NCBI GenBank assembly: GCA_001880285.1
Contig: CP016269.1
Coordinates: forward strand, 1-64,000
Length of the DNA: 64,000 bases
Reading direction: 5' to 3'
Source: Flavobacteriaceae bacterium UJ101
GTDB lineage: Bacteria; Bacteroidota; Bacteroidia; Flavobacteriales; UJ101
The notes under the pieces: generated by a model
What the model was told of the DNA's origin: nothing
What the model saw: only the letters and a program-made list of their open reading frames with translations
Database searches by the model: none
In this document: in pieces, positions 2,872-3,763 of the stretch
Numbering within the stretch: the stretch's first letter is position 1
Layout of the letters: every line of letters begins with the position of its first letter
Translations under genes and position numbers: made by a program

Positions 2872-3321
2872 TTACTCCTTTCTTATTAATTTATTTAATA
2901 AACGATTTAATTCTTTAGCTTCCTCTTCGGAAAGTTTTATAATATCTTTTTTTATATCTTCTATTTTTTCTGTTATTTCTTCACAAAGCATTTTTCCTTC
3001 TTCTAAAATTTGAATATGCACTACTCTACGATCGCTTTCACAATTAACTCTCTTAATTAATTTCTTTTCAATTAATTTATCTGTTAAACGAGTCAAATTG
3101 GGTGTTTTATCAATCATTCTGGATTTTATATCACTAACTGACATGGGTTTATTCGATCCTTTTAAAATCCTCAGTACATTATATTGTTGCATAGATAATG
3201 TATAAGTCTTAAATGCTTTCTCTATATTGTTTTTCACCCAATTTGAGGTAAAAAGTATATTTAAATGTACTTGTTCTTTTTCAGTATTGAAGTGGGTTTT
3301 TAACTCCTTTTCTAAATTCAT
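2872..3321 (-). CDS. MarR family transcriptional regulator
   Basis: A 149-residue winged-helix repressor. The recognition region (VSDIKSRMIDKTPNLTRLTDKL, about residues 62-83) and wing (SDRRVVHIQI, 96-105) are typical, flanked by dimerisation helices. Two cysteines (Cys94 at the wing, Cys113) could sense oxidants or thiols as in OhrR-like members; this is inference. It is first in a two-gene unit with pirin. The promoter region contains a perfect 24-bp palindrome 17 bases upstream of the start codon, which is the likely autoregulatory operator. Confidence 0.93.
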   Translation of the reverse strand: MNLEKELKTHFNTEKEQVHLNILFTSNWVKNNIEKAFKTYTLSMQQYNVLRILKGSNKPMSVSDIKSRMIDKTPNLTRLTDKLIEKKLIKRVNCESDRRVVHIQILEEGKMLCEEITEKIEDIKKDIIKLSEEEAKELNRLLNKLIRKE

Positions 3322-3325
3322 GATA

Positions 3326-3333
3326 CAAAGATA
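3326..3333 (-). promoter_or_regulatory. Candidate -7 element of marR promoter
   Basis: On the minus strand this reads TATCTTTG, matching the Bacteroidota TAnnTTTG element. It ends only 4 bases before the marR ATG, which would give a leaderless or nearly leaderless transcript. No good TTTG is present at the normal -33 distance. The operator-like palindrome overlaps the spacer of this promoter. Confidence 0.4.
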
Positions 3334-3337
3334 TAAA

Positions 3338-3361
3338 AATTATTTTACATGTAAAATAATT
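3338..3361. promoter_or_regulatory. Perfect palindrome, probable MarR operator
   Basis: A 24-bp perfect palindrome; each 12-base arm is AATTATTTTACA read outward to inward, with its exact complement following. It lies between the divergent marR and ytxJ genes, over the likely spacer of the marR promoter. MarR proteins bind palindromes of about this length, so autorepression is the simplest reading. A second partial copy of the right arm (TAAAATAATT) follows at about 3367-3376. Confidence 0.75.
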
Positions 3362-3427
3362 ACTCATAAAATAATTTTGTAAGGATTTAACTCTATCTTT
3401 GTCTAAAGGATTATAAAAAATTACTAA

Positions 3428-3763
3428 ATGGAAAATTGGAGAACATTAAACACAATTGAAGGTATCGATGCTATAATAGAGGCATCAAATCATAAACCAC
3501 AAATTATTTTTAAACATAGTACTACTTGCGGAATTAGTGCAAATGCTCATCATAAATTAGAAAATGATTTTAGTGAATTGGAGGGTAAAGTAGATTTTTA
3601 TTACTTAGATTTATTAGCAAACCGTCCTATTTCTAATGCAGTGGCTGATAAAACAGGTGTATTACATCAATCTCCTCAAATTATTTTATTAAAAAATGGT
3701 GAGGTTGCGTATACCGTTACACATTTGGCTATTAATCCAACAAAAATAGCAGAACATTTATAA
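3428..3763 (+). CDS. ytxJ: Bacillithiol-system redox protein YtxJ
   Basis: A 111-residue thioredoxin-fold protein with a single active-site cysteine, Cys34, in HSTTCGIS, the monothiol motif of the YtxJ family (DUF2847). Members are linked to bacillithiol and are thought to remove bacillithiol from mixed disulfides, like a monothiol glutaredoxin. Its presence suggests this organism makes bacillithiol. It is divergent from marR-pirin and shares the palindrome region, so it may belong to the same regulon. It converges with the smr gene, with only 2 bases between the stop codons. Confidence 0.88.
   Translation: MENWRTLNTIEGIDAIIEASNHKPQIIFKHSTTCGISANAHHKLENDFSELEGKVDFYYLDLLANRPISNAVADKTGVLHQSPQIILLKNGEVAYTVTHLAINPTKIAEHL

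Follow-up and report, generated by a model that had tools for sequence, protein, structure and literature searches.

The window, by which we mean the whole stretch of DNA analysed (64 kb, positions 1 to 64,000 of contig CP016269.1 of Flavobacteriaceae bacterium UJ101), contains near its beginning a marR gene and a ytxJ gene that point away from each other. The marR reading frame (2872-3321, minus strand) encodes a winged-helix protein of the MarR family, 149 aa long, with the stretch PNLTRL in the presumed recognition helix. It is followed after 3 bp, on the same strand, by a pirin gene (2008-2868). The divergent neighbour ytxJ (3428-3763, plus strand) encodes a monothiol bacilliredoxin (BrxC/YtxJ) and is separated from marR by an intergenic region of 106 bp (3322-3427). 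Pfam and NCBIfam agree on MarR and YtxJ, and the pirin gene was recognized by Pfam. The YtxJ protein scores 122.5 bits against TIGR04019, above the cut-off of 77.25 bits that defines bacilliredoxin YtxJ/BrxC. The MarR protein matches the Pfam MarR model (9.8e-11) and, by sequence, solved structures of MarR-family proteins; in NCBIfam, it lies below every equivalog cut-off, with HpaR as the best model (50.5 vs. 121.2 bits).

Between the two genes lies AATTATTTTACATGTAAAATAATT (3338-3361, no strand assigned), a putative MarR operator. As claimed in the initial annotation, it is a perfect 24-bp palindrome, identical to its own reverse complement. It is also the longest perfect palindrome of the window, the next longest measuring 18 bp, and in 100 order-3 Markov sequences, each as long as the window, palindromes of at least 24 bp occurred at a mean of 0.03 per sequence. 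A search of the 3.07-Mb genome for the same palindrome, which the initial annotation had proposed, revealed no second place with up to three mismatches allowed, so that the 24-mer is unique at this stringency. Its inner 14-mer has one other exact copy in the genome, at 2558461, without the outer arms. What the palindrome has in common with the sites of related bacteria described below is its inner 18 bp (3341-3358, TATTTTACATGTAAAATA) rather than the full 24 bp; this core is in the same frame as the putative operators of MarR-pirin loci in a family of relatives designated f3 (TATTTTCCATGGAAAATA type).

The sigma-A box of Flavobacterium psychrophilum, TAnnTTTG, spans positions -12 to -5, and leaderless messages account for 5.5% of the mRNAs considered (PMC9723704). 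We applied this box position to the window to predict transcription starts. On the minus strand, a -7 box, TATCTTTG (3326-3333, read from 3333 to 3326), lies four bases from the palindrome and four bases from the ATG of marR. The predicted +1 is at 3321, the A of that ATG, and the marR mRNA would be leaderless. On the plus strand, a second TATCTTTG (3394-3401) gives a predicted +1 at 3406 and a 22-nt leader for ytxJ. Both boxes are thus located where they had been noticed before, and since TAnnTTTG occurs at 1.67 per kb on both strands of the window, they constitute little proof by themselves. Relative to the predicted marR start, the palindrome covers -17 to -40 and its 18-bp core -20 to -37, in agreement with the earlier proposal that it overlaps the spacer of the marR promoter. 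Relative to the predicted ytxJ start, it lies at -68 to -45, upstream of the core promoter. Due to these positions with respect to the predicted starts, the palindrome fits the blocking of marR and not of ytxJ. Autoregulatory operators of MarR proteins are inverted repeats of about 16-20 bp that overlap the regulator's own core promoter, and the 18-bp core over the predicted marR promoter has this form.

Relatives of the MarR protein were gathered by order, phylum, and named-contig searches. A search within the family of the window found no genome other than this one, and for this reason the comparison of gene order does not extend to close range. In the order search, a MarR match was found in 126 of 395 genomes, and pirin neighbours were assessed in the best 30 loci. 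The flanking DNA of most of these loci is 1.5 kb long, and some gene names were assigned by eye from N-terminal likeness. Family f3, which belongs to the same order as the window and is probably Flavobacteriaceae, contributed 15 loci in which a pirin-like match lies no more than about 1.5 kb from the MarR gene. In seven of them, the pirin is 51-64% identical to that of the window, and in the other eight it is a distant pirin (24-36%). The f3 loci differ from the window in having longer apparent operons, with an FMN reductase-like gene ahead of marR on the same strand in all 15 (recognized by eye, and by Pfam for one), and in having ytxJ elsewhere. Some of them also contain DoxX-like, acetyltransferase, 4Fe-4S, OsmC, and glutaredoxin genes. 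In two loci from other families (L034 and L059), a pirin-like match is likewise found near MarR, but the recognition helix and the type of site are different.

In 14 of the 15 f3 loci, the gene that heads the apparent marR operon is preceded by the palindrome TAKNTTCCWWGGAANMTA, exact in 13 cases and with one mismatch in L160; in L162 (genome G195), this MarR is present without a site of the TAKNTTCCWWGGAANMTA type. In five of the 15 loci, an additional exact copy is found between the marR and pirin genes. The -7 box starts 13 bp downstream of the site in 11 of 14 loci and 5 bp downstream in two, while in the remaining one the sequence 13 bp downstream is no consensus box; in the window, the box starts 7 bp downstream. 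The window site resembles the f3 sites in frame, arms, promoter placement, and helix class of the adjacent MarR, and its arms are identical to those of the TATTTT...AAAATA sites. It departs from them in one base pair per half, the third from the centre: f3 sites have CC..GG at the inner positions, whereas the window has AC..GT, and this change of C to A at the ±3 positions distinguishes it from all 18 f3 sites used. A weight matrix built from the f3 sites alone ranks the window site first in the 64 kb by a narrow margin, at 14.2 bits vs. 13.5 for a site within coding sequence and 25-28 for the source sites. With the ±3 positions masked, the scores are 22.7 vs. 9.9 for the next, the mask having been chosen after the site had been seen. 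The 3341-3358 site is also the single position of the window that matches TATTTTCCATGGAAAATA in at least 16 of 18 letters.

A degenerate 18-mer was counted in the genomes of the order. The 16 genomes that encode this MarR (the window's own included) contain 20 exact sites vs. three for the reversed control; of these sites, 19 are located at the marR operon or at pirin, and one at a YceI gene. The other 379 genomes contain 26 sites vs. 45 for the control. These totals over 395 genomes were counted by eye, and they measure specificity rather than serve as a blind test because the pattern was derived from the same loci. None of the 16 outside sites inspected (of 26) adjoins MarR or pirin, as judged by eye from the list of reading frames; 13 of them are within reading frames and three outside. 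A wider regulon in the window's own genome was considered and rejected, as the exact 18-mer occurs there once and so does its reversed control. The 14-mer with up to two mismatches has 192 places in this genome vs. 148 for the control, and among the matches listed, which extend to about 1.48 of the 3.07 Mb, at least six places with one mismatch are all in reading frames. Across the order, a 16-mer search found matches in 18 of 395 genomes; some are operators, others lie in coding sequence, and others resemble terminators.

Sites of the same type were also observed away from marR. In four genomes of genus g22 (L120, L183, L184, and L185), an exact or one-mismatch site precedes a gene for a YceI-domain protein, and in L183 two such sites stand in tandem. 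Judging from these sites, the YceI gene is likely a second member of the regulon in this genus. A one-mismatch site in genome G280 (L187:1739-1756) is located about 340 bp upstream of a gene for a LigB-type extradiol dioxygenase, which is reminiscent of the targets of MhqR, discussed below.

The presence of the motif follows the regulator. The stretch PNxTRL was found in all 16 of these MarR proteins and in none of 38 other homologues, and the motif, at up to one mismatch, was found in none of the 38 other MarR loci within the locus DNA compared. In the phylogenetic tree, the 15 f3 MarR proteins form one group (support 100/98), which the window MarR adjoins (82/75); its placement is moderately supported, and the tree program warns of long branches meeting. 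Taken over 11 genera, the window's own included, the motif tracks both the MarR subfamily and the type of recognition helix, with marR as the constant gene of the loci. The site is conserved together with its regulator in 14 of 15 related loci, and in the window with one changed pair per half. As the helix class is shared and the motif is missing at the 38 other MarR loci, the palindrome at 3338-3361 very likely serves as the operator at which the MarR encoded next to it would repress marR-pirin. In this respect, the initial annotation, which had assigned control of the pirin unit to MarR through the palindrome, is well supported by the co-variation of site and helix among the relatives.

The following mechanism may be proposed. 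A MarR dimer would recognize TATTTTACA-TGTAAAATA, an inverted repeat of 9-9 bp that overlaps the spacer and -33 region of the predicted marR promoter, and would thereby block RNA polymerase. An inducer, most likely a quinone or another electrophile in the MarR pocket, would release the dimer, and marR and pirin would be switched on together. In this scheme, the promoter starts are predicted, and DNA binding, repression, the nature of the inducer, and what pirin does are inferences. The sensing of quinones or oxidants, which had been suggested at the outset, is made plausible by the neighbours found among relatives (DoxX-like, FMN reductase, OsmC, glutaredoxin, pirin, and YceI genes), and to that extent the suggestion may stand. 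As to a thiol switch of the kind seen in OhrR and YodB/QsrR, a cysteine before the wing (C..DRR) occurs in 11 of the 16 MarR proteins and is replaced by S or G in the other five, which tends to argue against conservation of such a switch at this position; the window MarR contains no cysteine within its first 90 residues.

By analogy, the closest worked example for this mechanism is MhqR, a quinone-sensing MarR repressor of Bacillus subtilis and Staphylococcus aureus, for which self-repression and a quinone bound in the pocket have been described and whose operator is an 18-bp 9-9 inverted repeat, TATCTCGAA-aTCGAaATA (PMC6798810, PMC12893000). As in S. aureus, where mhqR heads its own operon, the window marR stands first in its unit, and the window site shares with the MhqR operator the length of 18 bp, the 9-9 symmetry, and the TA...TA ends (TAT...ATA). 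A further likeness is that MhqR governs redox and ring-cleaving enzymes. Unlike the MhqR operator, the window site has TTTACATGTAAA as its inner bases and does not conform to the TATCTCGAA-aTCGAaATA repeat. The S. aureus operator is located at -6 to +12, whereas the window palindrome spans -17 to -40 with respect to a predicted start, and the proposed target in the window is pirin rather than MhqE/MhqD.

It was originally suggested that one MarR protein controls both units and so links the sensing of quinones or oxidants to thiol repair. A single dimer at a single operator would then regulate marR-pirin and the divergent ytxJ, and electrophile sensing would be coupled to thiol repair. We regard such joint control as rather unlikely. 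The 106-bp region is common to both genes, and the bacillithiol label for ytxJ is reasonable because BshC is encoded in the same genome, which makes bacillithiol chemistry likely in this bacterium. Furthermore, bacillithiol genes are upregulated under quinone stress in S. aureus (PMC6798810), and the glutaredoxin gene found between the operator-like site and marR in two relatives (L017 and L020) is an analogous thiol-redox partner. Against this stand the distance of the palindrome from the predicted core promoter of ytxJ and the result of the weight matrix, which detects no second site scoring above 0 within the marR-ytxJ intergenic region. In addition, ytxJ is present in all 15 relatives (36-45% identical to that of the window) and adjoins MarR in none of them, and the top operator score near it in these 15 genomes is 8.5 bits, far from the values of the f3 operators. 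The gene divergent from the operator-like site also varies among f3 loci, being a carboxyl transferase gene in L109 and a MarR-GNAT fusion in L122, so the divergent neighbour appears to be interchangeable. Joint control of ytxJ is thus not sustained by these comparisons outside the window's own family; the gene probably has a promoter of its own and is a bystander, with a weak influence of the operator at most. In 13 of the 15 relatives (ytxJ loci L128-L142), the gene next to ytxJ in divergent orientation is clpB-like, as recognized from N-terminal sequence, with one case checked by Pfam.

It is improbable that the palindrome belongs to another regulator and not to the adjacent MarR. Such a view could draw on the many other MarR homologues of Bacteroidota (L036-L049, L034, L035, L058, L059, and others), which also have a palindrome before marR, often near TAnnTTTG, but a different one, with TGT-N4-ACA sites in 24 of 38 loci and other recognition helices. 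It is opposed by the association of the motif with this MarR subfamily and its helix across the 11 genera, in loci where marR is always present. Within the set L036-L049, mostly Saprospiraceae MAGs, 12 of 14 loci have TGT-N4-ACA a short distance upstream of marR (for example, TGTCAAGACA and TGTTAAAACA), and 11 of the 14 marR genes are preceded by the same layout of TAnnTTTG, four bases, and ATG as the window marR. Finally, it is hardly credible that the palindrome is a terminator of transcription, forms an RNA hairpin, or arose by chance in AT-rich sequence: the region has 17% G+C, and in genome G329 a similar 16-mer between converging genes is part of a longer hairpin followed by T's, resembling a terminator, but the palindrome of the window lies between diverging genes, upstream of both predicted starts, and this reading is opposed by the rarity expected by chance and by the promoter positions of the same-frame sites in relatives.

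In the open-licence literature, searched by title and the start of the abstract, no description of the MarR-pirin pair or of its operator appeared among the matches listed, and a pirin/thiol-redox MarR regulon of Bacteroidota was not found in the literature searched. In the text of a paper on Bacteroides pirin available to a word search (PMC11304471), "MarR" occurs solely within an author name.

Returning to the proposed role of the palindrome as the MarR operator, what it adds is a regulatory detail, ordinary in kind and without a new mechanism. A broader idea, which we consider doubtful, is that a small MarR electrophile regulon of Bacteroidota pairs pirin with thiol-redox partners, that the inner pair of the operator and the recognition helix changed together, and that ytxJ was recruited to this operator in the present lineage. 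If this were true, the thiol partners would be glutaredoxin in two relatives and bacilliredoxin YtxJ in the lineage of the window. For family f3, the comparisons offer a candidate short regulon consisting of DoxX-like, FMN reductase, pirin, and YceI genes. They also suggest a testable operator code, in which PNATRLM helices would correspond to TTCC-W2-GGAA and PNLTRLT helices to TTAC-AT-GTAA.
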